Below the pieces are notes generated by a model. That model was not told the DNA's origin, did no database searches, and saw only the letters and a list, made by a program, of their open reading frames with translations. 38,576 nucleotides of DNA from a virus. Position 1 is the stretch's first letter. Each line of letters begins with the position of its first letter. The position numbers were made by a program, and so were the translations under genes. Below are positions 1 to 12,337 of the stretch, in pieces. Location of the stretch: IMG/VR virus record IMGVR_UViG_3300031624_000006, positions 1-38,576 of that record, one strand, 5' to 3'.

Positions 1-194
1 TTTCTGGTAAGATAGTAGGATTGACTGCTGGTTGCACAAAGCAGGAGTGCATCAAAGTAAACCTAGTTGGACAGGGTACTAGCCCCTGACCTTTGAAACG
101 CCAGCCATTTCAATCCTCCTAACCTTTTCACCCAGCCTCTGAGCAATGAGCTTTGGGCATTTAGTTCGGGGGCTGGGATGAGAAGGCTAGACAA
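1..194. other. Non-coding left edge, possible structured leader
   Basis: No convincing gene was found on either strand in this stretch. A 7-base inverted repeat, CCCAGCC at 131-137 and GGCTGGG at 171-177, encloses a 33-base loop that could form a hairpin just before the first small gene. A TTGACT at 21-26 has no matching -10 box at the right distance, so no promoter is called. The stretch may be the tail end of an upstream intergenic region, because the contig continues to the left. Confidence 0.35.
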
Positions 195-344
195 ATGCAG
201 CAGTGGTATTGCCATAAATGTAGAAAGATTAGATTGCCTCTCCTTGATAGGGGAAAGCCAAAGGTTAGGACTCTCCGCTCTGGCTTCATAGCAGTCTTCC
301 TGCAATGTGGGCATCTTGCTGCTGTTAATCAGGATAGGAGATAA
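195..344 (+). CDS. Small zinc-ribbon-like protein, 49 aa
   Basis: This is a short reading frame with ATG at 195 and an AGAAGG at 181-186 as a plausible ribosome binding site. The protein begins with YCHKC at residues 5-9 and has LQCGH at 36-40, so it offers a CxxC plus CxH set of zinc ligands, typical of small phage zinc ribbons. It is basic between the two knuckles. Its stop lies 2 bases before the ATG of the E2-like gene, and the ribosome binding site of that gene (GGAG, 337-340) is inside its last codons, so the two are probably translated together. No function can be assigned. Support comes from the ligand pattern and the tight spacing only. Confidence 0.5.
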   Translation: MQQWYCHKCRKIRLPLLDRGKPKVRTLRSGFIAVFLQCGHLAAVNQDRR

Positions 345-346
345 TT

Positions 347-1417
347 ATGCCAAGGGGATTAGAATCTATCGTAAACATTCTTGCTCAGATGAGGACTGAC
401 CAGTACCCTGAAGGTATCATAGTCTCTCAGGATTTTGGTGTCCACAGGTACTGTGATATAAACTCTAACTGTCCAGAAGCAATTAAACTCCGAAGGTACA
501 TTGCAGAGGCTGGATTAGAACTTGATGTTGTACTCCAGGAGCATAAGAATATATTATTTAATTCCCTAACCTCAACTTCTAGAGAAATAAACTATCCCGA
601 TTTTTCAGGTAAAACTACCATAATGATAGCTGGGAAAGAAATCGAAGTAGACCTCTCTGAGATTATAGAAGAAGAGCTGAAGAGAGCATTTTTTAGGAAA
701 ATAGACTGGTTCAGGGATGCAGAAAGACAACTCAGAGACCTTGGTTCTCAGCTTCATACTACTCTCTTAAATGATATTATAAGAAACAGGAGAAGTAATG
801 TTCTCCCTCAGCTCTCTTTTCCTATAGATAGACTTATAAAAACTGGGTGTCTTGTGACTACTGATTCTGAAAGATACCTCATTATCTTTCCTTTTAAGTA
901 CAGACCAAGGTGGCTCTGGACTCAAGGGGTAAGGTATAGGATGGGAGAGGAAGATACAGTTTCACTGGAGAGAAATGTCTTCCTTGCCTTCTCCATATCA
1001 AAGGAGGGGAAGTTCTTAACTCCACGCCTCATAGATTATGCTGGTAATAAGTTCTACCACTACCATGCCAGTAGAAATAGTGAGAGAGATTGTTGGGGTC
1101 AAGTTCACATCCCTGAAAGATGGGACAGAGAATTTAAATCCTTGGTAGACCTCAAGTACCAATTAGAGGGAGTAATAGCAACAATAAATCTGGACAGTCT
1201 GTATAGCAATACTCCACCTCTTATGCCCTATGCTTGGGACTTGATGGAAAGAGCAACTAAAGAAGGAGAGGAAGGTAAGATAAAGAGGAGGAAAGAGGGA
1301 GAGGAAGTAGAAGAAGTATCTGCTTGGTCTGAGTACTTTAGCAGTTTAGCCACTGTAGAAGAATTCTCAGAAGTATCTGAGGAAGCTCCTATCCCCCGAA
1401 GGTGGGGAGAACGGTAG
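347..1417 (+). CDS. Candidate E2-like (Prok-E2/PRTRC-B-like) protein
   Basis: A 356-residue soluble protein. Residues 100-150 are helical and charged. Residues about 155-260 look like a compact alpha/beta domain and end in HYH (238-240), a charged loop, then CWG at 249-251 followed by a proline (IPERW). That layout, a histidine-containing strand then an isolated Cys-hydrophobic-Gly and P, resembles the active-site signature of prokaryotic E2-like proteins (Prok-E2 family D / PRTRC protein B), which are encoded beside ThiF and JAB proteins. Here too the next two genes are ThiF and JAB, 6 bases downstream. C249 would be the candidate thioester cysteine. The C-terminal 50 residues are acidic and low complexity. 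The assignment rests on motif plus context and not on a full alignment; without the neighbours I would call it hypothetical. Start: ATG with GGAG 6 bases upstream. Confidence 0.5.
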   Translation: MPRGLESIVNILAQMRTDQYPEGIIVSQDFGVHRYCDINSNCPEAIKLRRYIAEAGLELDVVLQEHKNILFNSLTSTSREINYPDFSGKTTIMIAGKEIEVDLSEIIEEELKRAFFRKIDWFRDAERQLRDLGSQLHTTLLNDIIRNRRSNVLPQLSFPIDRLIKTGCLVTTDSERYLIIFPFKYRPRWLWTQGVRYRMGEEDTVSLERNVFLAFSISKEGKFLTPRLIDYAGNKFYHYHASRNSERDCWGQVHIPERWDREFKSLVDLKYQLEGVIATINLDSLYSNTPPLMPYAWDLMERATKEGEEGKIKRRKEGEEVEEVSAWSEYFSSLATVEEFSEVSEEAPIPRRWGER

Positions 1418-1423
1418 GTAATC

Positions 1424-2104
1424 ATGCCTGATGATTTATATTCAAGACAGGTAGAATTAAATCTCTATGTCCCAAACTCTGTAACAGTTGTAGGTTGTGG
1501 AGGAATAGGAACTTGGGTAGCTATTGACCTGGCTATGAGTGGAGTTCCAGTCATTTACCTCTTTGACCCTGATGTGGTGGAAGAATCTAATCGGAATAGA
1601 CTCCCCTTCTGCCAGGGTGCTCTCAACAGACCAAAGGTAGAAGTAGTAGCTGAGTTTATTAGAGCAATTAGACCTGATGCTATCATTGTCCCAATCCAGG
1701 ATAAGCTGGGAGGAATTCTCCTTGATATACAGGGGAAAGTATGTCATATCTACATAGACTGTACAGATTCCCCTAAGACACAGATGACTCTGTATAAGTT
1801 CTGTAAGGAGAGGGGGGGGACATATATCAGGGCTGGGTATGATGGGACTCATATCACAGATACCAGCATAGTAAGTGGCTGGATAAATGCTGCTTCTGAA
1901 GAGGAGAATTATCAGGTCAATCCTAGTTGGGTAGTTCCTGCTCAGATAGTAGCAGCCCTAGCAGTGGCTAAACTGATGATGTACCCAGACCAAGAGGTTA
2001 ACCTCGACATAAGCGAGATAGGTGTCCCTGTTGCTCAGAGGCAGAAAAAATTAACTGCAAGATGTAGGCAAACAGGGAGTGACCAAGATAGGAGAAGGAG
2101 GTAA
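1424..2104 (+). CDS. ThiF/MoeB/E1-like adenylating enzyme
   Basis: A 226-residue Rossmann-fold protein of the ThiF/E1 superfamily, which activates the C-terminal glycine of ubiquitin-like or sulfur-carrier proteins by adenylation. The nucleotide loop GCGGIG is at 24-29. The acidic strand end FDPD (47-50) leads into EESNRNR (53-59), the counterpart of the family ExSNxxR motif that contacts ATP. K71 and D115 match the conserved Lys and the late Asp. NPSWVVPAQIVAALAVAKLM near the end fits the family C-terminal helix. There are no CxxC zinc pairs, unlike MoeB. It is shorter than full E1 enzymes and lacks a separate catalytic-cysteine domain, so it probably acts with a partner such as the upstream candidate E2. 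Its stop codon overlaps the ribosome binding site of the JAB gene. Confidence 0.85.
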   Translation: MPDDLYSRQVELNLYVPNSVTVVGCGGIGTWVAIDLAMSGVPVIYLFDPDVVEESNRNRLPFCQGALNRPKVEVVAEFIRAIRPDAIIVPIQDKLGGILLDIQGKVCHIYIDCTDSPKTQMTLYKFCKERGGTYIRAGYDGTHITDTSIVSGWINAASEEENYQVNPSWVVPAQIVAALAVAKLMMYPDQEVNLDISEIGVPVAQRQKKLTARCRQTGSDQDRRRR

Positions 2105-2108
2105 TAAA

Positions 2109-2921
2109 ATGCCTTGGGGTAAAGCTGACACAGAAACTGAGAAAGTAGTATGCTCAGAGGTATCAGTCCCTGACATCTACATAGAGGCTATTCCTAGACA
2201 GAAGATAGGTTATCTCATGGAGGAGTACCCCCACCAAGAGTGGCTTGCTTACCTTGTTGGTAAGAAGTCAGACCACGAGAAGTTCTTTGTGGAGGACATA
2301 TCCATTCCTCCTCATACTGAATCTTCTATGGCAAGTGCAGAAGCTGAACCATTCCATATCCCAGATAAGTGTATTGGTATCATCCATTCTCACCACAGAA
2401 TGGGAGCTTTCCACAGTGCTACTGATAGGGACTATGTGGATAAAAACTTCCCTGTGTCTATCACAGTAGCATTTGGAGAAGGGAGCAACCTTGCTTATGA
2501 TGCTCTGAGTTATCAGATAACTCCTTGTGGGAAGAGGATAGTCCTTGATTGTACTGTGAAGTATGTCCAACCTCCGCCACTGTTCAACAAGGATAAGTTT
2601 CTTAATAAGGCAAAGGAGAATATTGAGAAGGCACACAAAGTTTCCTTTGTGTCCTCATTAAAAGTAGTTCCCAGTGCTCTTGTTGGATATGAAGAGTTTC
2701 CTTGGTATCCTCATTACAGGGGAGTCCCCCTTCCACAAACAGCAGTAAGAGCTAAGGAGTCCTCCTTCCTAAGAATGAGGATACCAAAGATAGTTACTCA
2801 AACTGAGATACAGACAGTTCAAGACCAGGCAAAAGAGAGATATGGCTTTGTTCTTTCTAGGGCTGAGGCTGAGGATATTATTCTTAATCACCCTGAAGGT
2901 ATCCGATGGTTGGAGCTATGA
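2109..2921 (+). CDS. JAB/JAMM (Mov34/MPN) metalloprotease
   Basis: A 270-residue protein with a complete JAMM zinc-peptidase signature: E44, then H93-S-H95, seven residues, S103, two residues, D106. In this family the two His and the Asp bind zinc and the enzyme hydrolyses isopeptide or C-terminal peptide bonds of ubiquitin-like proteins; some prokaryotic members mature Ubl precursors or cut cysteine off thiocarboxylates. Residues 1-20 are acidic and residues about 190-270 form an extra C-terminal region I do not recognise. ATG 2109 is chosen over an in-frame GTG at 2079 because AAGGAGG (2096-2102) lies 6 bases before it and overlaps the stop of the ThiF gene. Together with the two genes upstream it makes a ubiquitin-like modification/removal cluster. 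All key residues are present, so it is probably active. Confidence 0.85.
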   Translation: MPWGKADTETEKVVCSEVSVPDIYIEAIPRQKIGYLMEEYPHQEWLAYLVGKKSDHEKFFVEDISIPPHTESSMASAEAEPFHIPDKCIGIIHSHHRMGAFHSATDRDYVDKNFPVSITVAFGEGSNLAYDALSYQITPCGKRIVLDCTVKYVQPPPLFNKDKFLNKAKENIEKAHKVSFVSSLKVVPSALVGYEEFPWYPHYRGVPLPQTAVRAKESSFLRMRIPKIVTQTEIQTVQDQAKERYGFVLSRAEAEDIILNHPEGIRWLEL

Positions 2922-2993: not shown

Positions 2994-3737
2994 ATGTTAG
3001 AGTGGCACGATGTCTCTGAGTACATCCAGCAAGAAGTTTATGACCCCCCTTTTTTCATACAGGACTTACTTGCTAGAGGTGGCAGCCTTGAACTGTGTGG
3101 ACAGCCTGGTGTTATGAAATCTTGGACTGCTGAACAAATGGGTTTTTGTATAGCTACTGGGACTGATTGGTTAGGATTCAGGACATCCCAAGCTAGATGT
3201 CTCCTTACCAACTTTGAGATAAGTAAGCCAAGATACCATCATAGGTTAGTCCTAATGTCAAGGAATTTTGCTGTTGAACAGGGTATGCTCATTGAGTGTA
3301 CCTTGCCTTACTATTATCTGGATGAAGGAAACAGATTTGAGGTGTTTAAGGAGTTGGTAGACTTCATTGAGCCTGGAGTTATTATTCTTGACTGTTTCTC
3401 TGGTTGCTTTGGTGGTGACGAAAACTCCCCAAGAGAGATGTCTGGCTTCATAAACATATTATCGGAGTTGAAAGGAGAAAACAGGGGCATAATCCTCATC
3501 CATCATACTAACAAGAATCCTCTTATTGTCTCCCCAATAGATAAATCCAGAGGACACACTAAACTTACAGGCTGGGTAGATACTGTTCTGTATATGACTA
3601 ACCAACCTAATGGGAAACAGATTCAATTTGGAAAGACCAGACATTCCTCCAGTGAACTTCACAGTATCAATATAGTTTTTGATAACTACTTTTGGGTAAT
3701 TAGAGGACAGACAAACCCAAACCAAGGAGGTGCTTAG
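2994..3737 (+). CDS. RepA-like RecA-fold ATPase (replicative helicase type)
   Basis: A 247-residue ATPase of the AAA_25/RepA group, the family of hexameric RSF1010-RepA-type helicases also found as phage replication ATPases. Walker A is GQPGVMKSW at 36-44, with K42 and S43. The segment GTDWLGF (56-62) followed by a short strand and an E (FEIS) is the family pattern. Walker B is VIILDCFSG, with D133. LIHHTNK near 168-174 is the sensor-like histidine motif. It should unwind DNA at the phage replication fork, upstream of the split DNA polymerase. It is preceded by a promoter only 24 bases from the ATG and has no Shine-Dalgarno sequence, so it may be translated from a very short leader. An exact replication role is inferred. 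Confidence 0.75.
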   Translation: MLEWHDVSEYIQQEVYDPPFFIQDLLARGGSLELCGQPGVMKSWTAEQMGFCIATGTDWLGFRTSQARCLLTNFEISKPRYHHRLVLMSRNFAVEQGMLIECTLPYYYLDEGNRFEVFKELVDFIEPGVIILDCFSGCFGGDENSPREMSGFINILSELKGENRGIILIHHTNKNPLIVSPIDKSRGHTKLTGWVDTVLYMTNQPNGKQIQFGKTRHSSSELHSINIVFDNYFWVIRGQTNPNQGGA

Positions 3738-3741
3738 TGCT

Positions 3742-3794
3742 CAAGCTATAATGTTTATATTAAGTAAAAGTTTAATAACAAAGAAGGTTATTAA
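3742..3794 (+). promoter_or_regulatory. Possible weak promoter plus operator hairpin
   Basis: In the 93-base gap between two genes, CAAGCTATAAT at 3742-3752 contains a TATAAT but no good -35 box. The same 10 bases CAAGCTATAA occur at 2946-2955 in the promoter upstream of the helicase gene, the only other intergenic gap nearby. Downstream, TTAATAAC (3772-3779) and GTTATTAA (3787-3794) form a perfect 8-base inverted repeat with a 7-base loop. This could be an operator or an mRNA hairpin ahead of the gene at 3831. There is no T-run after it, so it is not called a terminator. Confidence 0.4.
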
Positions 3795-3830
3795 AGAGAA
3801 TGCCAAAATAGTTTAAAAAAGGAGGAAAAG

Positions 3831-4583
3831 ATGCCTATAACAAATAGAAGCGAAGCCAAAGAGAGTGGCTTTGCTCAGGTAAGAGATGCTTTAGTAAAGT
3901 TCAAAGGCAGGGTAACAAGTGCTGAATTTGGTGTGTGGGGAGGAGAACTGGTAGACAAAGAGACAGGGAAGAAAGTCCAGCCAAGGGAGTTCCTTGAGAT
4001 TGTCACGGAGGATAATGAAGTCCTGGAAGTTACTGAGGAATTGTCTATGGACATCTCCCAGCAGTGGACATTCAGGGTTAATTGCTCTGATTACAAGGGT
4101 AGCTTCTGGGTAGAAATGTTCCTTGCATCGGCTGATAAGTTCAAGGTCAGGATTCCTGATGGGCTTATCAATAAGGTGGTTACCTTTGAGAAAGTTACCC
4201 TTGAAGCCTATGACAGGAATGGAGAAAGAACTCCCAAGTATGATTCCACAGGGATGGTAATAGCAGGAGTAGAAGGAGGGACAGCTAAGGCTGCTCCTAA
4301 GATTGTCAAGAAGGAAGGAGCAAAAGAGCCAAAGGAGGTTGGTGAGGTATCTAGTGAGCAACCAGCAGCCACTGGGGATGAAGCAGTAGACTACATGGCT
4401 TTAGCTGTTACCCTTGCTGTTGGAAAGACAGAAGCACAATTCAAAACAGCTATTGCTCTTGACCCTACTTTCATCAATAGCCCACACTTATCATTAGCTA
4501 AGGCAGGATTGCTTACCCAAGCACTTATCAATGATGGTAAGCTTACTGTAGATGGGGAAGGTAAATTTCAGAAGCCTGGATAA
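3831..4583 (+). CDS. Possible single-stranded DNA-binding (OB-fold) protein
   Basis: A 250-residue protein with a consensus AGGAGG ribosome binding site. Residues about 20-140 alternate beta strands and loops: FRVNC, GSFWVEMFLAS, FKVRIP and VVTFEKVTLEAYDR look like OB-fold strands. A charged linker rich in K, E and A follows (about 155-185), then a small helical C-terminal domain of about 60 residues. The position directly after the replicative ATPase and before recombination nucleases is where phages commonly place their ssDNA-binding protein. No sequence signature is decisive and there is no acidic C-terminal tail of the E. coli SSB type. The last 60 residues may be a protein-interaction module. 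Alternative: an unrelated replication accessory protein. Confidence 0.4.
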   Translation: MPITNRSEAKESGFAQVRDALVKFKGRVTSAEFGVWGGELVDKETGKKVQPREFLEIVTEDNEVLEVTEELSMDISQQWTFRVNCSDYKGSFWVEMFLASADKFKVRIPDGLINKVVTFEKVTLEAYDRNGERTPKYDSTGMVIAGVEGGTAKAAPKIVKKEGAKEPKEVGEVSSEQPAATGDEAVDYMALAVTLAVGKTEAQFKTAIALDPTFINSPHLSLAKAGLLTQALINDGKLTVDGEGKFQKPG

Positions 4584-4888
4584 ACCTGGGAGTACCATAG
4601 AGGGGGAGTTCCTAGGAGGTGTTTGGCAGCCTACCTTCCTCCCCTTCCAGAGGGCTGATGCCTTGTCAGGAAACAGGTGGGGACAGGGACATCTGTGAAC
4701 AAGACCTGTCACAAACTAATATGCTGTGAGTCTGCCAGGGGCTGACTTCAATGATATTGGTTATTAAGGCTTTTAGAAGGCAGCCTTGAGAACCTTCTGG
4801 TGGCAAGCACCTAAAACCTGAATCAGCTCTCTGGATGGTGAGGGAGGACATTAAAAATTGAGTATGTGCTGGTGGCAAGTTGGGGGTG
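4584..4888. other. Structured intergenic region, possible ncRNA or origin
   Basis: About 300 bases without a credible gene, unusual in this compact genome. GAGGGGGAG (4600-4608) pairs with CTCCCCTTC (4639-4647) in a 9-base stem with one G-T pair. AGAAGG (4775-4780) pairs with CCTTCT (4793-4798). CTGGTGGCAAG is repeated exactly at 4797-4807 and 4869-4879. There is no T-run after either hairpin. It could be a structured RNA, the replication origin, or a remnant gene. Confidence 0.4.
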
Positions 4889-5026
4889 ATGCTCCCACAG
4901 TCTAGAATGCTTAAATGGATGTATGCAACAGCCAGCAAGGTAATCTGGCAGGGTGAGTACATAGCAGGTACTTCAAATGTAGCGATAAACACAGCCCTGC
5001 CAACTAATAAGGAGAATAATGCTTGA
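4889..5026 (+). CDS. Tentative small protein, 45 aa
   Basis: An open frame starts at ATG 4889 (or GTG 4886) after a G-run (4882-4886) and ends 8 bases inside the next gene, in the ATGCTTGA style of overlap used elsewhere in this genome. The peptide is basic in its first third, aromatic in the middle (KWMYATASKVIWQGEY) and polar at the end. No family is recognised. The ribosome binding site is poor and the reading could be chance, so this is a weak call kept because of the overlap pattern. Confidence 0.25.
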   Translation: MLPQSRMLKWMYATASKVIWQGEYIAGTSNVAINTALPTNKENNA

Positions 5027-5918
5027 AGGCTTTCTTTGCCCTGATGGAGTAACTATCAAGACTGAGGCTTGTCTTGATAGTTGTCGCATGGAAGACAGAT
5101 GCCAAGAGCTCCCTGACCTTGTTCTCATATCCCAAGAGAGGGAGTTCAAGGGTGTTCCTTCCACTACTCAGCTAATCAATGGTACTATGCTGGAGTTCTT
5201 GAAGCTTACAAAGCCATACTATATAGACCCAGACTCCAGAACATTCATGGTTATTGGTACTAGACATCATCAGGAAATGGATGATATAGCAAAGCAACTT
5301 GGTATGGCTTCGGAAGTAGCTTTGTCTATTGATAGGGACATCTTTGACTTGATAACATGGACTAACAAGGGGCTTTGTCTTGTTGATAGAAAGGTGTGGG
5401 GAAGTTACAAGGTAGCTAAAGCCTTGGGGATTACCAAGGTTGGGGAGCAACCAGACCCTTCTGGTGCTGTGTACAAGACTAATTCTAAGTATGGCAAAGC
5501 AGGAGACCCCAAGATGATTCCTATTTGGGGGGTAGACCAAGACAAGATTGATAACTGGGAGGCAGAGCTTCAGCTTAACAGGTACAGAGTCCTCCTCTAT
5601 GAGAAAATAGGATTATCAGTGGCTGATATGTGCCTTCGGGTCAAGGTCAGAGATGGGGGACTCTACATAGCCAAGGACAGGGGAGTATTTAGGAATAGCT
5701 ATCGGATTCCTATTAAGTTTCTCCCTGATAGCAATGTCAAGGAGTACTTTGATTATAAGGAGAAATGTTTGCTTACTGCCCTGAAAGAAGGGGAATGGGT
5801 GCTCCCTTGTACTGCTGCTGAGTCCTGGGATGGGATTAGGTGTGAAGAATACTGTGATGTTTGGCAATACTGTCCAAAAGGACAATTAGTTCATGGCATA
5901 GGAGGCAAGGGTGCGTAA
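5019..5918 (+). CDS. Cas4/RecB-like PD-(D/E)XK nuclease with Fe-S cysteines
   Basis: A 299-residue protein with the layout of Cas4/AddB-type nucleases. Motifs, in order: GTRHHQ with H83/H84 (RecB motif I histidine); D110 in IFDLITW; D123-x-K125 in LVDRK, equivalent to the catalytic D and K of ExK; and Q185 with Y189 in ELQLNRYRVLL, the QxxxY motif. Cysteines near the N terminus (C7, C18, C22, C28) and a C-terminal group (C264, C275, C279, C285 in RCEEYCDVWQYCPKG) are arranged as in Fe-S nucleases. It likely trims or resects DNA ends during phage recombination with the nearby Sak4-like ATPase. GGAG at 5011-5014 supports ATG 5019. A defence-related Cas4 role is not suggested by context, since no CRISPR array or cas1/cas2 is present. 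Confidence 0.7.
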   Translation: MLEGFLCPDGVTIKTEACLDSCRMEDRCQELPDLVLISQEREFKGVPSTTQLINGTMLEFLKLTKPYYIDPDSRTFMVIGTRHHQEMDDIAKQLGMASEVALSIDRDIFDLITWTNKGLCLVDRKVWGSYKVAKALGITKVGEQPDPSGAVYKTNSKYGKAGDPKMIPIWGVDQDKIDNWEAELQLNRYRVLLYEKIGLSVADMCLRVKVRDGGLYIAKDRGVFRNSYRIPIKFLPDSNVKEYFDYKEKCLLTALKEGEWVLPCTAAESWDGIRCEEYCDVWQYCPKGQLVHGIGGKGA

Positions 5919-6012
5919 ATGGTCTGATGATTACCATATCAAGGAACTGATATGGGGGATACTTCTGTTTATACTGATATTCCTCATAGCGATACTAAGT
6001 AAAGGAGGTTAA
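5911..6012 (+). CDS. Single-membrane-helix peptide, 33 aa
   Basis: A short GTG-started gene overlapping the preceding gene by 8 bases, with GGAGG at 5901-5905 only 5 bases before the GTG. Residues 1-12 are polar and charged; residues about 13-29 are a continuous hydrophobic helix (IWGILLFILIFLIAILS), followed by KGG. It stops immediately before the next ATG at 6013, whose ribosome binding site (AAGGAGG) is contained in its last codons. The predicted product is a tiny inner-membrane peptide with the N terminus in the cytoplasm. No function is known; membrane anchoring of the replication complex or superinfection exclusion are only guesses. Confidence 0.6.
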   Translation: MRKWSDDYHIKELIWGILLFILIFLIAILSKGG

Positions 6013-6255
6013 ATGAATAATTGGAGACCCAAAGAATGGGACAATCCATACAGTTGCGATAAGAAATTAACTAAAGCATGGACTGAATGGTTTCAATCTG
6101 ATGCAGAGATTGCTTTTGAAGCTGGCGCAGATGCTATGATAGAGGCATTAAGGAAGACTGGAGATAAGGTTGATAATGAAGAGGAAGTACCAATTCTTTA
6201 CTACCCACCAAATAAAGGTATAATTGTATTTATTCCTGATGAGGAGGATAAATAA
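6013..6255 (+). CDS. Hypothetical phage protein, 80 aa
   Basis: An acidic 80-residue protein beginning with WRPKEWDNPY, followed by a helix containing FEAGADAMIEALR (about 36-48). Short phage proteins with a WRPxxWxNPY start and a FEAGADAMxEAL segment recur in replication regions of phages; their function is unknown. The consensus AGGAGG (6003-6007) supports the start. It overlaps the next gene by one base (TAATG). Confidence 0.65.
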   Translation: MNNWRPKEWDNPYSCDKKLTKAWTEWFQSDAEIAFEAGADAMIEALRKTGDKVDNEEEVPILYYPPNKGIIVFIPDEEDK

Positions 6256-6461
6256 TGATTTGGTTTCAATTACAAGATGGACAAAGTCTCTGTCCTTTTA
6301 GGTCAGGGCAGGTGGAAGATAGAGATTGCTGCGCTGGCAGCTGTCCTTTCTTTGTCCAGTTTAAGGGGAACTTAGAGAAGTCAGATGGAGAACCAGAATT
6401 TGACTGTTTATTTCGTTTAGTTTTATTAAAATACTTAGGAGTTAGAATGGAGGGTTTATGA
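6255..6461 (+). CDS. Cysteine-rich small protein, 68 aa
   Basis: A 68-residue protein with cysteines at CPF (residue 13), DCCAGSCPFF (25-34) and DCLF (50-53). The spacing suggests a small metal-binding knuckle. It starts at an ATG overlapping the previous stop and ends with an ATGA overlap with the ATPase gene, so it is translationally coupled on both sides. No family recognised. Confidence 0.6.
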   Translation: MIWFQLQDGQSLCPFRSGQVEDRDCCAGSCPFFVQFKGNLEKSDGEPEFDCLFRLVLLKYLGVRMEGL

Positions 6462-7228
6462 GAGAGAAGATTCTAATTGGGGGTGACACCAACTCAGGGA
6501 AGACACTGGCTATAATCCAGTTAGCTGTTTCCTACCCAGAAAGGCAAGTCTGGGCTTTCGATGCTGAGGGTGACATCAACCTCACCCTTGAGGAGTTTGG
6601 TCTGGAGCTTCCTAATCTGACTGTGGTTAATGCTAAACCAGACTGGGTGGAGCTTGAGGCTAAGTACAAGGAAGCTAAGGAAGTCCTTACCTCCGATGAC
6701 TGGATGACATTTGATATGATGGGGGTCTTCTGGGACTTAGCTCAGAACTACTTCTCCCGAAGTGTCTTTGGTGAGTCCCCCGCAGAGCATATTGTAGCTC
6801 TCCGCAGAGATGCCAAGAGAGCTGATTTTGGTGGCTTTGATGGCTTGACAGACTGGACTGTAATTAAGAGGATGCACAATGAGGACATCTTTGATGATGT
6901 TACCAAGTGGTCTGATTTCAATGTGCTGGCTACTACCAGCCTTACCGACTTCTCCCCGAAGGAGAGAGTCCCACAGACAGGTGTTAGGGGACTCATGGCT
7001 AAGGAGTTCGGTAGGAAGTTAGAAGGAGAAAAGCACAATGAATTCAGGTTTAGAGAGATAGCTATAATTTACTGTGATATTAGGGAAGGGAAATACTGTT
7101 TCAAGCTTGTTAAGGAGAAGGGGAAAGTACCTGAGCAACCTCTTCCTGAGTATGACTTCACTGGTAAGAGCTTCATAGATGTCTACCATGCTGTGAAGGA
7201 GGGAAGGTATGAAATACCTGAAACATAA
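6458..7228 (+). CDS. Sak4-like RecA-fold recombination ATPase
   Basis: A 256-residue P-loop protein of the phage AAA_24/Sak4 group. Walker A is GGDTNSGKT at 8-16. A Walker B-like strand, WMTFDMMG, lies near 82-89. VLATTSLTDF around residue 155 fits the third conserved strand. These small RecA-like proteins promote single-strand annealing or strand exchange with phage SSB, and here an SSB candidate, a RecB-like nuclease and an ERCC4 nuclease are all close by. GGAGGG 5 bases before ATG supports the start. Assignment to the Sak4 branch rather than another AAA_24 ATPase is by length and neighbourhood. Confidence 0.7.
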   Translation: MREKILIGGDTNSGKTLAIIQLAVSYPERQVWAFDAEGDINLTLEEFGLELPNLTVVNAKPDWVELEAKYKEAKEVLTSDDWMTFDMMGVFWDLAQNYFSRSVFGESPAEHIVALRRDAKRADFGGFDGLTDWTVIKRMHNEDIFDDVTKWSDFNVLATTSLTDFSPKERVPQTGVRGLMAKEFGRKLEGEKHNEFRFREIAIIYCDIREGKYCFKLVKEKGKVPEQPLPEYDFTGKSFIDVYHAVKEGRYEIPET

Positions 7229-7304
7229 GTGGCATAACTTCTGGTTTGCTTTGAGCTATGCTATGTGGACATTCAGATATATGGTAAAGGATAGGAAAGT
7301 ATGA
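7209..7304 (+). CDS. Aromatic-basic micro-peptide, 31 aa
   Basis: ATG 7209 lies inside the end of the preceding gene, with AAGGAGGG starting near 7196 as ribosome binding site. The stop overlaps the next ATG (ATGA, 7301-7304). The peptide is MKYLKHKWHNFWFALSY followed by AMWTFRYMVKDRKV: very rich in aromatic and basic residues, amphipathic, possibly membrane-associated. The ribosome binding site and overlaps on both sides support it being real; function unknown. Confidence 0.5.
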   Translation: MKYLKHKWHNFWFALSYAMWTFRYMVKDRKV

Positions 7305-7486
7305 GGTACAATAATGGTAAACCAGTAGATAAGAGGAAGAGGCTGTACTACCCTTACTGTGGGTATCATGAGGGTTTCTGCTTGAAGGGAAGTCCATGTA
7401 CTGAGGGATACCCCAATGGTAAAGGTTGTAAGTTCTTCAGGGCTAATCATCCTATTACCAAGCTCCCTCCACAGATGCTGAGGTAA
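7301..7486 (+). CDS. Small Cys/aromatic protein, 61 aa
   Basis: A basic 61-residue protein with YYPYCGYHEGFC (16-27), a second pair of cysteines in SPCTEGYPNGKGCKFF, and His residues between, suggesting a zinc or Fe-S knuckle. Translation is probably coupled to the preceding micro-peptide by an ATGA overlap. Function not recognised. Confidence 0.55.
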   Translation: MRYNNGKPVDKRKRLYYPYCGYHEGFCLKGSPCTEGYPNGKGCKFFRANHPITKLPPQMLR

Positions 7487-7489
7487 CAA

Positions 7490-7711
7490 ATGAAATGTCT
7501 AAGGTGTGAACAGGAAATAGAACAAGATGCCCCCGCAGGAGCTGTTATCTGTGGAATTTGTGTTGATGAATTAAGGCAAGAAGAAGATGGTATACGAGAC
7601 CAACAGGAGGCAGAGGCTAGGGACATGATGGAGGAAATGGATAGGGAAGCATATGAGGAAGAAGAAAGGGAAAGGCATATTGATAATGGTAATAGCTGGG
7701 GGTACTGTTAA
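7490..7711 (+). CDS. Zinc-ribbon plus acidic helix protein, 73 aa
   Basis: Residues 3-6 (CLRC) and 21-24 (CGIC) form a CxxC...CxxC zinc ribbon. Residues 28-66 are a strongly acidic Glu/Asp-rich helix, likely a coiled coil or a nucleic-acid mimic. GAGG with an 8-base spacer precedes the ATG. The stop overlaps the following ATG (TAATG). It may be a small regulator or adaptor; no family is recognised. Confidence 0.6.
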   Translation: MKCLRCEQEIEQDAPAGAVICGICVDELRQEEDGIRDQQEAEARDMMEEMDREAYEEEERERHIDNGNSWGYC

Positions 7712-8427
7712 TGCTCTGGATAGATGATAGAGAGGTGACAGCCCACCCTGAGATTCCTGAACTGATAAAAATTGAATACAAGGTTGAGAGACTTGATTCT
7801 TCTGACTATGCTTTCATTGATTCCAACAAAGAACCAGTAGGCATAGAGAGGTGTGAAATATCAAATCTTGTCCAGAAGCTCAGGTCAGGGGAATTGGAAG
7901 ACCAACTTTACCGATGTCAAGATTCCTTCTCTTCTGTTATCCTCCTCAAGGAGGGAGTCTATGATGAGGTTGATGAGGTTAGTGGTTTGCTTGCTACCCA
8001 CAAGAAAGGGAATAGGGGATATTACAGGGATTTTGTTTACCCCCATACTACCTTTGAGATTATTAAAGCTATGGAAGTAAGGTTATCAGGGATGGGGATA
8101 GAGATAATAGATAGTCCTAATTTTCCCTGTAGTATAATTATAGTCAGGTTACTCCATGACCTCAGAACTAAACCAGAGGGGGAGAGGACATTGTTCAGGA
8201 AAGTAAGGAAGGTTAATCTCCCTGTTAAGCTATCTGCTAATCCTGCAGTGCCAAAGCTTATGGCTCTTGTGCCACATCTATCCGAGAAAGCAGCTATAGC
8301 TCTTATCTATAAGTATGATACTATCTGGGGTGTGCTCAATGCTCCTGACAAAGAGCTTCTGAAGGTTGATGGGGTCGGTAAGGGAGTGGTTAGGAATCTG
8401 AGAAGGAGTATTGGTAAGGAGGGTTGA
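7711..8427 (+). CDS. ERCC4/XPF-type nuclease domain with HhH tail
   Basis: A 238-residue protein resembling phage ERCC4-domain nucleases, which cut branched or flapped DNA. DDRE at 5-8 matches the first acidic motif and SSDY at 30-33 the GDY-type motif. GIERCEISNLVQKL at 44-57 aligns with the GxERKxxxDLxxSL core, and QL at 65-66 follows. The C terminus (about 190-235) has a helix-hairpin-helix, LLKVDGVGKGVVRNL. The catalytic ERKxxxD is changed to ERCxxxN, so the Lys and one Asp are missing and activity is doubtful. GGGGG just before the ATG serves as a ribosome binding site. Confidence 0.7.
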   Translation: MLWIDDREVTAHPEIPELIKIEYKVERLDSSDYAFIDSNKEPVGIERCEISNLVQKLRSGELEDQLYRCQDSFSSVILLKEGVYDEVDEVSGLLATHKKGNRGYYRDFVYPHTTFEIIKAMEVRLSGMGIEIIDSPNFPCSIIIVRLLHDLRTKPEGERTLFRKVRKVNLPVKLSANPAVPKLMALVPHLSEKAAIALIYKYDTIWGVLNAPDKELLKVDGVGKGVVRNLRRSIGKEG

Positions 8428-8529
8428 ATGAAAACAGGTTTAGGTTTTTGGTTATTCCTATCAATCATAGCTGGGTTTGCTGGATTAGGTATTGCCTTTC
8501 TTATTTTATTGATTATGGATTTAGTTTGA
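8428..8529 (+). CDS. Single-membrane-helix peptide, 33 aa, before DNA polymerase
   Basis: A hidden gene: AAGGAGGG (8416-8423) sits 4 bases before ATG 8428. The peptide starts MKTGLGFWLFLSIIAGFAG and continues LGIAFLILLIMDLV, almost entirely hydrophobic with one basic residue at the N terminus. The TGA stop at 8527-8529 overlaps the ATG of the polymerase gene. It is in a different frame from the longer open frame that could be read from TTG 8424, whose first 35 codons have no matching ribosome binding site. The product should be a small inner-membrane protein. Why it precedes the polymerase gene is unknown. Confidence 0.6.
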   Translation: MKTGLGFWLFLSIIAGFAGLGIAFLILLIMDLV

Positions 8530-9521
8530 TGAGATTCATAATTAACAAACAGATGTCCTTAGAGGAAGCTCTAGCTCTAGCCAAAGAGCCAAGAACTAAG
8601 ATAGGTCTGGACATAGAGACAGTGAGCTTGGAGAACCAACTCCCTCTTGGTATAGGGATAGCTATATCCTCTACTATAGGTTTCTACTTCTTTGACCCTG
8701 GAGATGAATTAGCCAAGGAGATGGTAGAATCAGCCCACACTGTTATCATCCAGAACGCTAAGTATGACCTACCTATCCTCTATAATCTAGGTTATTCTAT
8801 CCGAGCCTATGAGGATACTATGCTCATAGCTTATAGTGCAGGAATCCTTGACAACAGCCTTGAAATCTTATCCCAAGAAATCCTCCTCAAGGAATGTCCA
8901 AAAGTTACCTCTCTTTGGAGGAAGCCTGACCAGGGTAATATAGCTATTGACCATGTGAAGATGGGACAAATATGTATTATCCATGCTTGTAGAGCCTACG
9001 AGCTAGAAGAAAAGCTGCCAAAGACAGCCCTCTACCAAATGATAGATAAACCTTGCTTACCTCTCCTGATGGAGATGGAAAAGTGGGGGGTACTTATTGA
9101 CCAGTTCACATTGACCAGAGTTGAACAATCAGTTATGGATAAAGTTATCCCTATGGAAGCTGAATTGAAGGCTGAACTCCGTGTTGAGAACTTAGCTTCC
9201 AATGTCCAGGTAGCTGAGGCTCTTAGGAATCTTGGTATCATAGGTACAAGGAAGACCAAGAGTGCCAAGGATAGTGTATCCGAGGAAAGCCTTAAACCTC
9301 TTAATTTACCTCTTACCAATAAGATACTGAAGTGGAGGAGCTTAATGAAGAATCTGACCACTTATGTCCCTGCGTTTAGGAAAGTAGATGCTCAGGGTAG
9401 AATACACACAGTCTTTGGTAATACCAATACTGGTCGCTGGAGGTCTGGTGATAAGAAGATGGGGAAACCTAATTTACAGAACATAACGAGGGACTCTAAG
9501 TTCGAGGACTCTAATGACTGA
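8529..9521 (+). CDS. DNA polymerase I, N-terminal part (exonuclease and thumb)
   Basis: A 330-residue protein covering the 3'-5' exonuclease-like domain and thumb of a family A polymerase. Exo I is DIE (D28, E30). Exo II is NAKYD (N76, D80). At the place where YxxxD (Exo III) is expected, IHACR (151-155) is found, so proofreading may be lost. The polymerase half begins with GRIHTVFGNTNTGRW and GKPNLQNITRDSKF, the conserved GR..LQNIPR stretch before motif A. The reading frame then stops at 9521, and motif A onwards continues in another frame. ATG 8529 is chosen because it overlaps the stop of the membrane peptide; no good Shine-Dalgarno precedes it. There is no 5'-3' nuclease domain, as usual for phage PolA. 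Confidence 0.8.
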   Translation: MRFIINKQMSLEEALALAKEPRTKIGLDIETVSLENQLPLGIGIAISSTIGFYFFDPGDELAKEMVESAHTVIIQNAKYDLPILYNLGYSIRAYEDTMLIAYSAGILDNSLEILSQEILLKECPKVTSLWRKPDQGNIAIDHVKMGQICIIHACRAYELEEKLPKTALYQMIDKPCLPLLMEMEKWGVLIDQFTLTRVEQSVMDKVIPMEAELKAELRVENLASNVQVAEALRNLGIIGTRKTKSAKDSVSEESLKPLNLPLTNKILKWRSLMKNLTTYVPAFRKVDAQGRIHTVFGNTNTGRWRSGDKKMGKPNLQNITRDSKFEDSND

Positions 9522-10236
9522 TACCCTAAGAGGGTGTATTATATCTGAATCTGGCTATACTTTCATATCCTTGGATGCCAGCCAGATAGAGCTCCGTGTT
9601 CTGGCTATCCTAAGCCAAGACCCACAGATGCTTGAAGACTTGAAGACCAGTGACCTCCATATGGCTACTGCAATCAGGATGTTTGGTTGGACTGATAATG
9701 AAGATGAGATGTCCGCAAGAAGGTACAAAGCTAAACAGGCTAACTTTGCTTTGGTCTATGGTGCTGATGAGTACAAGTTAGCTGAAATGTTAGAGTGTAC
9801 TTTGGAAGAAGCTAGAGAGTTTATGGGAGAGCATAAGAGAGCATATCCTATACTCTATGCTTGGATGGAGGAGGTCAAAATCAAGGTAAAAGAAGAAGGT
9901 TATACTGTCAATATGTTTGGTAGGATTAGACCCATACCAGAGCTAAATGCTGGGAGTTGGAAAGTAAGAGAAGCTGCTGAGAGGGAAATAATTAATACCA
10001 TAACCCAAGGCTCAGCGGTTGACATAGTTAAGATAGCTATGCTATACTTGAGGAAGGTATTAGATATAAGTGTACGATTAGTACTCCAAATCCATGATGA
10101 AATGCTTTGGGAATGCCCAAATAACTTGCTTCACCAATCGGTGAAAATATGCCAATCAGTAAAAGATATATTTCCTGACTATCCATTCAACATTAAAGTA
10201 GGTACAATATACAATCAGCTAAAGGAGGTAAAATGA
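9514..10236 (+). CDS. DNA polymerase I, C-terminal part (palm and fingers)
   Basis: A 240-residue protein that carries the whole catalytic core of family A polymerase. Motif A: DASQIELR (D21). Motif B: R70, K74, F78, Y82, G83 in the pattern RxxxKxxxFxxxYG; F78 corresponds to E. coli Phe762. Motif C: QIHDE, with H193, D194, E195. It overlaps the upstream polymerase half by 8 bases (ATGACTGA, 9514-9521), in the +1 frame relative to it. It may be expressed by stop-start coupling, by frameshifting, or the break may be an assembly error. It cannot be a complete polymerase alone because thumb and primer grip lie in the upstream product. Confidence 0.85.
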   Translation: MTDTLRGCIISESGYTFISLDASQIELRVLAILSQDPQMLEDLKTSDLHMATAIRMFGWTDNEDEMSARRYKAKQANFALVYGADEYKLAEMLECTLEEAREFMGEHKRAYPILYAWMEEVKIKVKEEGYTVNMFGRIRPIPELNAGSWKVREAAEREIINTITQGSAVDIVKIAMLYLRKVLDISVRLVLQIHDEMLWECPNNLLHQSVKICQSVKDIFPDYPFNIKVGTIYNQLKEVK

Positions 10237-10281
10237 TAAGAGTTAAAGATAAACCAAGTAGGTACAATATACAATCAGCTA
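10196..10281 (+). repeat. 26-base direct repeat, two copies 60 bases apart
   Basis: Identical 26-base copies occupy 10196-10221 and 10256-10281. The first encodes the end of the polymerase, the second the start of the next gene, read in different frames. Two exact copies this close suggest a recent duplication or a site for slippage. A shared-protein origin is unlikely because the frames differ. Confidence 0.7.
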
Positions 10282-10601
10282 GGCTTGAAGAAGCTAGTAT
10301 TTACTGTGAGTTTGATGTAGATAGGCTCAGTCCCAATGATATTGAGGTTGTTAAACAATGCTTAGACGAAGTCGTGGAAATGCTCCCAGGAGATACTATC
10401 TCTTTTTCCTACAACTTCGAAGTTGAATATTTTGGAGTAGTTAGAGCGTTCCTTACCATACTTAATATTTTGGATAAAGCTTCTATAGTAAAGGTTAAGA
10501 CTGAGGAGTTACTTAAAGGGAGATGTCTTGCTCAAGAGTTATTCTGTAGGCTGGAACAAATTGAGAAAAAGTTCTGTAAGGGAACAAACGGAGAAGCATG
10601 A
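10233..10601 (+). CDS. Hypothetical protein, 122 aa
   Basis: A 122-residue alpha/beta protein with no recognised motif. The first 15 residues, within the second copy of the 26-base repeat, are basic; the rest alternates a beta strand (TISFSYNFEVEYFGV) with helices. It overlaps the polymerase stop by 4 bases (ATGA) and the methyltransferase start by 4 bases, with AAAGGAGG before its own ATG. It is probably a small replication-associated protein; no family assigned. Confidence 0.55.
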   Translation: MIRVKDKPSRYNIQSARLEEASIYCEFDVDRLSPNDIEVVKQCLDEVVEMLPGDTISFSYNFEVEYFGVVRAFLTILNILDKASIVKVKTEELLKGRCLAQELFCRLEQIEKKFCKGTNGEA

Positions 10602-11287
10602 GTAGTATAGTTCTCCCACCACAGATAATACATGGTGATAGTCTTGAAGCTCTGATAAAGATGGAATCAGGGATAGCTGACCTTGCCCTTATAGACCCAC
10701 CTTACTTCGATTATAAGACAGGGCATAGAAAGGATAAAGATGGTAAGCTCAGCCAGTCCTTAGTCCAGCAGGACAGGGATTCCCAACTTCGTACTGTCCA
10801 AGAATGTATCCGAATCCTTAAGGATAATAGAGCTTTCTTCTTCTTTACCAACTGGCAGGAGGCTTGGTGGTTTCAAGAGAGATTCTCTTCTTTCTTGAGG
10901 AATGAAATAGTCTGGGATAAGGGTAACTGGACAGCAGGAGACCTAGAAGGTAGTCTTGGTTGTAAATGGGAAGCTATTTTCCTTGGTGGCAAAGGTAGGT
11001 GGAAGCTCAAGGATAAGAGATTAAATGATATTGATGGCTGGGACATACCCAGAGTTAGTACTGATAGAGTCCATCCAACTGAGAAGCCTGTAGACCTCTA
11101 TGTTAAGATAATTGAGTTAGCTACAGAACCAGGAGACCTTGTCATAGACCCTTACCTTGGCAGTGGAGCGAGCATGGAGGCAGCTATCAGGACTGGGAGG
11201 AACTTCCTTGGCTGGGATATAGATGAATACTATTACAAAGTTTGTTTAGAAAGGGGGGAAAGATGTCAGAAGAAAGACAGATTTTGA
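10598..11287 (+). CDS. DNA methyltransferase, beta class (N4-C or N6-A)
   Basis: A 229-residue Rossmann methyltransferase. The catalytic motif IV DPPY is at 33-36 near the N terminus. HPTEKP (159-164) and the SAM-binding DPYLGSGASMEAA (184-196) follow, giving the beta-class order typical of CcrM/MboIIM and many phage enzymes. It would transfer a methyl group from SAM to adenine N6 or cytosine N4 in phage DNA, most likely to protect it from host restriction. The recognition site cannot be read from the sequence. No partner restriction gene is present, so it is an orphan methyltransferase. Start: ATGA overlap with the previous gene and GGAGA in front. Confidence 0.85.
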   Translation: MSSIVLPPQIIHGDSLEALIKMESGIADLALIDPPYFDYKTGHRKDKDGKLSQSLVQQDRDSQLRTVQECIRILKDNRAFFFFTNWQEAWWFQERFSSFLRNEIVWDKGNWTAGDLEGSLGCKWEAIFLGGKGRWKLKDKRLNDIDGWDIPRVSTDRVHPTEKPVDLYVKIIELATEPGDLVIDPYLGSGASMEAAIRTGRNFLGWDIDEYYYKVCLERGERCQKKDRF

Positions 11288-11529
11288 TTTGCCCAGAATG
11301 CGATGGTCATGGTTATCAATTTAAGCAGTATGGATATTGTCCAACTGCACATACAGAAGAGGAGCAACTTGAGATACTAAGGAGTTGTTGTCCAGATGCT
11401 AAGGATGTGGAGGTAATAGGGAGAGGGGGAGATATATGGAAGATTAGATGTCCTCTCTGTAAAGGTAAGCGTTTTGTCTCTGTTCACCAAGATAGTTCCC
11501 AAGTAATTCAAGGGGGGAAAGATGCCTGA
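11263..11529 (+). CDS. Zinc-ribbon protein (DnaJ-like CxxCxGxG), 88 aa
   Basis: ATG 11263 is chosen because AGGGGGG lies 5 bases upstream; an in-frame start at 11242 would lie deep in the methyltransferase gene without a ribosome binding site. The 88-residue protein contains CPECDGHG near the start and CPLCKGKR near residue 64, a pair of CxxCxGxx knuckles like those of the DnaJ zinc domain, with more cysteines between. Such small ribbons bind zinc and often nucleic acid. Its stop overlaps the phosphoesterase gene by 8 bases, and both genes share an identical AGGGGGGAAAGATG initiation region. Confidence 0.6.
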   Translation: MSEERQILICPECDGHGYQFKQYGYCPTAHTEEEQLEILRSCCPDAKDVEVIGRGGDIWKIRCPLCKGKRFVSVHQDSSQVIQGGKDA

Positions 11530-12337
11530 AACAAGTACACTAACAGTTGTTGAGAAAGAGATACCTTTTAGTATGTTCTATGTAGTTCCCCTAGCTGATT
11601 TCCACATTGGAGCTAAAGCCTGTGCTTACAATGTAATACAGGGATATGTAGATTGGATTAGAGAGCATGATAATGCCTATACAATCCTCAATGGGGACTT
11701 AATGAATTGTGCTACGAAGTCGAGTACACCAGAACTTTGGGAAGATTTGATAACACCAGATGAAGCTTATGCCAGATTAAGAGCTATACTTCTCCCTATC
11801 AAAGATAAGATTCTAATGGTAATAAGAGGGGGGCATGAAGAACATATCTATAGGTTAGTTGGCACAGACTATTCAGCTAGGCTTGCTTATGATTTGGGGG
11901 ATGTACCATACAGACCTGATGCTGGGTTAGTAATAGTCTACAGCCCAAGACCAGGAGTATCTACTGGTAGGACAGCTTTCAAGTTCTATGCTACTCATGG
12001 TTGGGGAGGAGCAAGAACTATTGGAGCTAAAGTTAAAAAGGTAGAGGAACTGGCTATGGCTGTTGACGCTGATGTTTATATCCTTAGCCATGACCATACT
12101 CAGAATGTCCATAGGTTAAATAGGTATGTACCTTCTGATAAGCACACCAGACAAGGGATACTTTACCTTATCCCACACAGACAACTTCTTATCAATACTG
12201 GGGGATTCCTCAAGTATGAGGGTTATGTAGCAAAGAAAGGCTATATCCCCCAAGACTTAGGTACTCCAAGGATAAGGTGTGAAGTTAAAAGGGATAGTTC
12301 TGGTAGGTATTATAAGGACTTACATTCAAGTATATAA
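11522..12337 (+). CDS. Calcineurin-like metallophosphoesterase
   Basis: A 271-residue protein with the metal-binding motifs of the calcineurin/Mre11 superfamily in order: DFH at 26-28, NGD at 57-59, GGHEE at 103-107 (GNHE in the family; Asn replaced by Gly), ATHGWGG near 158-164 and SHDHTQ near 190. These enzymes hydrolyse phosphodiesters or phosphomonoesters. Beside a polymerase and recombination nucleases, an SbcD-like DNase role is possible, but no SbcC-type ATPase is present. The missing Asn of the GNHE motif may slow catalysis. A strong GGGGGG precedes the ATG. Confidence 0.75.
   Translation: MPETSTLTVVEKEIPFSMFYVVPLADFHIGAKACAYNVIQGYVDWIREHDNAYTILNGDLMNCATKSSTPELWEDLITPDEAYARLRAILLPIKDKILMVIRGGHEEHIYRLVGTDYSARLAYDLGDVPYRPDAGLVIVYSPRPGVSTGRTAFKFYATHGWGGARTIGAKVKKVEELAMAVDADVYILSHDHTQNVHRLNRYVPSDKHTRQGILYLIPHRQLLINTGGFLKYEGYVAKKGYIPQDLGTPRIRCEVKRDSSGRYYKDLHSSI

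Follow-up and report, generated by a model that had tools for sequence, protein, structure and literature searches.

A probable ubiquitin-like conjugation and deconjugation pathway encoded beside the replication genes of a tailed phage

The left edge of a linear viral contig of 38,576 bp (IMG/VR virus record IMGVR_UViG_3300031624_000006, analyzed whole and referred to here as the window) carries three co-directional, close-packed genes for proteins resembling an E2 conjugating enzyme, an E1 activating enzyme, and a JAB deconjugating protease (Table 1). Taken together with related contigs, in which a fourth gene for a ubiquitin-like protein (Ubl) lies upstream, the data indicate that this phage very probably encodes a complete four-gene pathway of Ubl conjugation and deconjugation, in the order Ubl-E2-E1-JAB, with its own Ubl gene beyond the left contig end. 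Fold or family, conserved active-site residues, and conserved gene order were computed for all four parts; catalysis, the direction of flow, and lysine as the acceptor are what we infer from the sequences. A preliminary description of this DNA had proposed a candidate ubiquitin-like conjugation and removal pathway at positions 195-2921, and the proposal gained support from the Ubl found in relatives and from the retained E2 neighbor. The co-directional E2-like/E1-like/JAB set stood, and its order is repeated in relatives, while the start at 195 was found to belong to a 49-amino-acid (aa) open reading frame (ORF), the E2 gene itself starting at 347.

Relatives were sought by scanning viral contigs. 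A scan with the E1 returned one locus (L002), a two-sequence alignment returned L004 and L006, a scan with the Ubl returned L021 and L022, and a wider scan with five E1s returned 31 loci; single-protein scans with the E2 and with the JAB were too narrow. The E2 gene precedes the E1 gene in L002, L004, and L006. Three related contigs (L002, L006, and L022) repeat the order E2-E1-JAB, and L004 has E2-E1 followed by a partial JAB gene at the contig end. Because this order recurs in related contigs, the E2-E1-JAB arrangement is not a chance juxtaposition. Both L021 and L022 carry the E2, and L022 has the whole set. By profile, Ubl-E2-E1-JAB was detected in fixed order in 9 of the 31 loci (L045-L050, L052, L055, and L065), and this nine-contig set, with contigs of up to 189 kb, includes unrelated phages. 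About ten more viral contigs hold diverged versions of the four-gene set; in the distant loci, the gene between Ubl and E1 has drifted beyond the reach of the E2 profile. Whether related phages keep the E2 neighbor had been raised at the outset, and the inspected relatives that have an E1 and its upstream region do have an E2-type ORF, recognized by profile or by active-site motif. Two scans of cellular genome contigs, in which distant forms were not searched for, returned no cellular relatives of the close group, and so far this closest group appears to be known only from viral contigs.

The E1-like protein scored 81.6 bits against PF00899, over the curated cut-off, and contains both the GxGGxG loop and the N/R/K/D adenylation residues of that family (R8, GCGGIG at 24-29, D48, N56, R59, K71, and D115). 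Among 28 phage E1s, R8, the glycine loop, D48, D50, N56, K71, and D115 are invariant and R59 is kept in 25; presumably, the conserved residues correspond to the adenylation residues of MoeB. Structures of ThiF, MoeB, and UBA5 in the Protein Data Bank (PDB) matched the E1 with E down to 3e-17. For the JAB, the ATG at 2109, behind AGGAGG, was preferred as the start over the GTG at 2079. The protein scored 28.2 bits against PF14464, above the curated cut-off, and has the complete E...HxH-x7-S-x2-D motif, made up of E44, H93 and H95 (as H93-S-H95), S103, and D106; its profile gave a weak match to the AMSH-like sst2. The JAMM motif is intact in the JABs of most relatives; in five diverged matches its spacing is not exact, and deconjugation may thus not be universal. 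The residues from which the preliminary description had recognized these two enzymes (the glycine loop, N56, R59, and K71 of the E1 and all the motif residues of the JAB) are present as it had read them and are conserved in relatives.

The first protein consists of an N-terminal extension (about residues 1-160) and a C-terminal E2 domain (about 160-310), in which HYH at 238-240, the predicted catalytic C249 (in DCWG), and N281-x-D283-S284 are the key residues. In six homologues of 30-35% identity, H238-Y239-H240, D248-C249-W250-G251, P256, T279, N281, D283, and S284 are invariant, and the protein has the arrangement of the E2/UBC superfamily, namely a His motif about 10 residues before the Cys and a helix (263-277) after it. 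An AlphaFold2 model gave predicted local distance difference test (pLDDT) values of 80-92 for most of 160-310 and shows a meander, an active-site loop, and a helix 14 residues past the Cys, the order of elements being that of UBC; the spacing from H238/H240 to C249 and the helix at 263-277 fit E2 topology in the model. When the model was compared with the PDB using Foldseek, 25 of the 50 best matches were E2 or UEV chains, each with E>=0.3.

The identity of the E2 was further studied through the diverged proteins that occupy the same slot in distant loci, here termed slot-mates. When the close E2s alone were made into a profile and this was compared with a profile of 12 diverged slot-mates, the two matched over 194 columns (95.6%, E=1.2e-8), and the alignment kept the His, the Cys, and N-x-D-S in register; unrelated control profiles all scored <4%. 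Textbook active sites of E2 enzymes occur among the slot-mates (HPNVNDDGMVCLG in L053, HPNISGEGEVCLG in L054, HPNVSSDGSVCLG in L058, and HPNVSGSDVCMG in L056). The slot-mate pattern is HPN-x-x-x-x-G-x-V-C-L-G, and the site is canonical HPN...CLG in L053, L054, and L058. A helix and N-x-D-[SD] follow the active site in several of these proteins, nearly all have a C-x-G Cys equivalent to C249, and Pfam UQ_con covers the active-site region in L058 (E=2.9e-4), L053 (E=3.8e-3), and L054 (E=0.019). Because the close-group profile matches slot-mates that have textbook active sites and touch UQ_con, the first protein is assigned with high confidence as a diverged E2, the sequence link being transitive, via intermediates. 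The original call, made from HYH...CWG...P and context, is well supported by this profile link, and the residues on which it was based (HYH 238-240, C249-W-G, and P256) are all among those invariant in the six divergent homologues.

When all six frames of the window were searched with profiles, no Ubl match was better than E=5. In relatives, the Ubl gene lies 63-836 bp upstream of E2, the longest distance being that in L004, where the Ubl gene is behind an HNH gene (6422-6856, + strand) that separates it from E2; the Ubl is absent from the window because the contig ends 346 bp before the E2 gene. A small gene upstream of E2 in L002, L004, and L006 encodes a product ending in ...[PS]YDKVG. The C-terminal DKVG is invariant in the close group, and [D/N]-x-A-G or A-A is found in several distant proteins. 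The Ubls ending in DKVG are single-domain proteins, encoded directly upstream of E2. The AlphaFold2 model of the Ubl has a pLDDT of ~90 over the last 70 residues, arranged as strand-strand-helix-strand-strand, and its best 50 PDB matches were all beta-grasp domains or proteins that include such a domain (ubiquitin, SUMO, MoaD, ThiS, LC3, and TGS), with probability near 1 and E 0.006-0.04. A beta-grasp fold, a C-terminal Gly, and a position adjoining E1 and E2 are therefore found together in the relatives, in line with the earlier suggestion that a Ubl could lie to the left of position 1.

Note, however, that several observations weigh against a complete pathway. A Ubl is seen in the relatives only, not in this phage, and the Ubls of the relatives gave no significant direct family match in Pfam, NCBIfam, and PHROG scans; the close Ubls end in -VG, not -GG, and some distant ones end in AA or without Gly. 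The E2-like protein likewise had no family match in direct scans of the same three collections. Its model has a moderate overall pLDDT (66.6) and no individually significant fold match in the PDB by Foldseek, a BFVD fold search with it was uninformative, searching PDB sequences with the profile of the E2 returned nothing relevant, and the UQ_con scores of L058, L053, and L054 are under the Pfam curated cut-off. A conserved 245-aa gene that precedes the module in four other phages has no family match (Pfam, PDB sequence) and is absent from most other loci. In addition, there is no invariant Cys column among the 28 phage E1s (C113 is present in 22), and for this reason an E1 thioester is not assured; the E1 may form a thioester or may pass the adenylate directly to the E2.

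In the mechanism proposed here, the JAB would expose the C-terminal Gly of the Ubl, unless a terminal Gly is already present and no processing is needed, and the single-domain E1 would adenylate the Ubl using ATP. The Ubl would then move to Cys249 of the E2, which would attach it to target-protein lysines with no separate E3 involved, and the JAB would remove the mark. An alternative interpretation is that the genes form a sulfur-carrier system, serving for instance the thiolation of RNA or a cofactor, with a ThiS/MoaD-like carrier, a MoeB-like E1, JAMM processing, and the first protein as a substrate-binding partner. The E1 has the single domain of MoeB or ThiF, with ThiF and TcdA as its best structural matches, and the Ubl is equally close to MoaD/ThiS and to ubiquitin; but there is no rhodanese or thiolation gene nearby, and the gene in the E2 slot has an E2-type H...C site related to HPN...CLG proteins, and we consider a sulfur carrier quite improbable. 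Another reading makes the E2-like protein a scaffold without catalytic activity, in a set whose only function is to bind or process a Ubl. In its favor, the overall similarity is weak and HPN is replaced by HYH in the window group, yet the Cys is invariant in the six homologues and its C-x-G equivalent persists in nearly all diverged slot-mates, and this reading is given very little credence.

Table 1. Positions of the genes and clusters discussed; coordinates are those of the window unless a locus is named.
Feature	Position	Strand	Basis
Left contig edge, no Ubl; Ubl gene expected further left, beyond the contig	1-346		Six-frame search
ORF of 49 aa, MQQWYCHKCRKI...QCGHLA, small Cys/His protein	195-344	+	Read from sequence
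Predicted E2-like Ubl-conjugating enzyme, 356 aa	347-1417	+	Homologue motifs, model, profile links
E1-like adenylyltransferase, 226 aa, single ThiF/MoeB-type domain	1424-2104	+	PF00899 E=6e-23
JAB/JAMM metalloprotease, predicted deconjugase, 270 aa	2109-2921	+	PF14464 E=1.9e-6
RecA-fold ATPase (AAA_25), opens the replication block	2994-3737	+	PF13481 E=1.6e-20
Conserved 245-aa protein directly upstream of Ubl	L050 6076-6822; L052 4227-4973; L055 6999-7733; L065 6925-7662		
Crassvirales/Flavobacterium phage clusters next to primase or uracil-DNA glycosylase	L013 2987-7164; L014 3045-7097; L015 3222-6652; L077 601-5633		

The genes downstream of the module (2994-12337) encode the AAA_25 ATPase, an exonuclease, an ERCC4 nuclease, and a family A DNA polymerase, which bears out the earlier placement of the set within a phage replication region. 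Judged by its genes, the source is a tailed phage; family scans identified the major capsid protein GP7 (PF20911) and tail proteins, and a terminase gene is at the right edge of the window. No direct or inverted repeats were found when the window ends were compared, and the contig was therefore treated as a fragment. In close relatives, the same replication genes follow the module, the AAA_25 gene among them (synteny in L046, L047, and L049). The four-gene order is kept in distant loci although the flanking replication genes are unrelated there. In L050, L052, L055, and L065, the replication genes are replaced and the module is directly behind a clamp-loader ATPase and the 245-aa gene; the clamp loader is of the gp44 type, with DNA_pol3_delta2 and Gp44_lid matches in L050 and L065, the two tested. 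The 245-aa protein was considered as a sliding clamp, which was not supported by Pfam or PDB sequence search, so that it would be a clamp by position only. An SbcC/Rad50-like ATPase and a helicase flank the module in L058. Besides the HNH gene of L004, an ORF that is GIY-YIG-like by sequence lies between E2 and E1 in L050 (8109-8945, - strand), and an opposite-strand ORF (L077 3196-3945, - strand) splits the JAB gene of Flavobacterium phage Fpv1; homing-type endonuclease insertions in or beside the module would suit a module that is usually kept.

Some further features were recorded around these genes. The 49-aa ORF is probably outside the pathway, and other small Cys-rich ORFs occur near the module in L004 and L002. 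An extra 87-aa ORF between E2 and E1 in L002 (5737-6000) is absent in other relatives, and a second short ThiF-like gene is found ~6 kb downstream of the first in L056 (15948-16520), L061 (13812-14339), and L064 (16741-17283). The family A DNA polymerase of the window is present as two overlapping ORFs in different frames (8424-10236), of which 8424-9521 contains the exonuclease and the start of the polymerase and 9514-10236 the remainder; a real split, a frameshift, and an assembly error are all candidate explanations.

PRTRC operons, which we take to be the type 6d operons and which occur on plasmids and integrative elements, are the closest known set in composition; those from plasmids were used as the comparison for all parts. 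The same four functions (PRTRC_C Ubl, PRTRC_B, i.e., Prok-E2_D, PRTRC_A JAB, and PRTRC ThiF) are present as separate genes on mobile elements. The PRTRC ThiF is a single-domain E1 that aligned with the phage E1 at 96.9% in hhalign, although ThiF proteins are all related, and PRTRC_B shares C-x-G-x3-hydrophobic-P around the E2 Cys. PRTRC operons can also adjoin replication genes (dnaN or ssb) on plasmids; in the Sulfuricystis plasmid pSTJ1, the operon directly follows dnaN, which encodes the sliding clamp (L039 1-688). In contrast, the PRTRC order is C-F-B-A-ThiF, within a ParB/E/C/F/B/A/ThiF cassette, whereas the phage set is Ubl-E2-E1-JAB without ParB, E, or F proteins, and an upstream H-x-H is present in the phage E2. 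The PRTRC_B profile does not recognize the phage E2 (E 0.09-0.24), and hhalign between them was not significant, although an unconstrained local alignment still put the Cys in register. PRTRC_A has no clear match to the phage JAB (TIGR03735 E about 0.1), and NCBIfam gave E 0.04-0.1 for TIGR03735/03736, far below the cut-offs, with no PRTRC_B or PRTRC_C match. Direct membership of PRTRC was rejected, since neither profile membership nor gene order agreed with the plasmid operons, and a weak score of the E2 against PRTRC_F (3.7%, E=0.012) was taken as noise.

The operons that Iyer et al. described in 2006 (types 6a-6e) are bacterial; for phages, that paper gave no more than TAPI/TAPK, a pair of tail genes with a Ubl and a JAB (PMC1779556). 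The lambda TAPI/TAPK pair resembles the present set in being a phage Ubl and JAB, and differs in having no E1 or E2, in lying in the tail genes, and in the fusion of the JAB to NlpC/P60. The ThiF-JAB clusters of Crassvirales (DAC15, cr128_1) and Flavobacterium phage Fpv1, which share the setting of a phage replication block, seem to follow the same idea in a second lineage of phages, with candidate E2 and Ubl. The Crassvirales JAB (hhalign 97.3%) and E1 (97.5%) are related to the window group, one upstream gene of these clusters has H-x-H...C-[LI]-G, and another has a beta-grasp-like N terminus. In contrast, the order is putative Ubl, putative E2, JAB, E1, and the E2-like and Ubl-like genes of Crassvirales have no detectable relation to the window group. 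The genes of these clusters are mostly entered in public records as hypothetical or as 'thiamine biosynthesis protein ThiF', and in some of their Ubl-like proteins the first domain is followed by KSG[AG] and then by a long tail, as if processed.

The role of the pathway was ranked by position, with replication targets first, counter-defense second, and a weapon against other phages third. Since the module is in the replication block here and behind the clamp loader in four other phages, phage replication proteins are favored as the targets, and position makes this a reasonable if tentative proposal. It is more doubtful that the pathway is a complete, portable one through which diverse tailed phages control their DNA replication, tagging replisome proteins reversibly, possibly with the sliding clamp among them, just as eukaryotic PCNA is tagged. 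The same biochemistry could instead serve as counter-defense, with the Ubl placed on host immune proteins or with the set competing with Ubl-based defenses of the host (CBASS Cap2/Cap3, Bil, or Bub); we regard this as a serious alternative, though somewhat unlikely. Antagonists are often carried by phages, Ubl conjugation belongs to bacterial anti-phage systems (PMC10449767, PMC11354881), and the E1 is remotely similar to PADLOC E1-E2 profiles (E=6e-11); that similarity, however, is of the shared adenylation domain only, the module is inside the replication block and not among early accessory genes, a complete four-gene pathway exceeds the needs of an inhibitor, and no host target is known.

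As a third possibility, the phage would use the pathway as a weapon for superinfection exclusion of its competitors, in the manner of Bil or Bub operons; this draws on the description of Bil operons (Ubl, E2, JAB, E1) as anti-phage bacterial systems (PMC11354881, and Millman 2022 as cited there). BilABCD, Bub, and CBASS Cap2-Cap3 share with the phage set Ubl conjugation with a JAB deconjugase, and BubCD (E=3.9e-8) and Cap2 (6.8e-5) have remote E1 similarity to it. They differ from it in that the phage E1 is one small domain, that the context is replication, and that there is no two-domain Ubl. The features that define Bil are likewise missing: BilD is an E1 with an inactive and an active adenylation domain and a ~80-aa catalytic insert, and BilB has a CEHH motif (PMC11354881), whereas the phage E1 is 226 aa with one domain, no CEHH pattern follows C249 in the E2, and the single-domain Ubl of relatives does not match the two-domain BilA. 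Nor is the architecture that of type II CBASS Cap2/Cap3, as the JAB has a gene of its own and the E1 is not part of a fusion, and no CD-NTase was found among the gene products scanned, which took in part of the ORFs. With the module amid replication genes and no integrase in the parts searched, superinfection exclusion is judged improbable.

Eukaryotic cells, and a small number of gene clusters in bacteria, are where ubiquitin-style tagging is normally encountered. Bacterial operons with complete Ubl-E2-E1-JAB sets have been described, and work on them has mainly treated them as anti-phage defense or assigned them no function (PRTRC). No description of the complete phage set was found in the open-access literature, subscription papers and preprints not being covered, and its novelty is accordingly provisional. 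The cultured Flavobacterium and Bacteroides phages are possible laboratory systems, their clusters being so far only analogous. If many unrelated phages do have the full set among their replication genes, viruses would run their own ubiquitin-like signaling, and the origin of E2 enzymes could be studied in a new reservoir, the phage E2s with canonical HPN...C sites. The idea that phage replication involves reversible tagging of proteins could then be put to the test.

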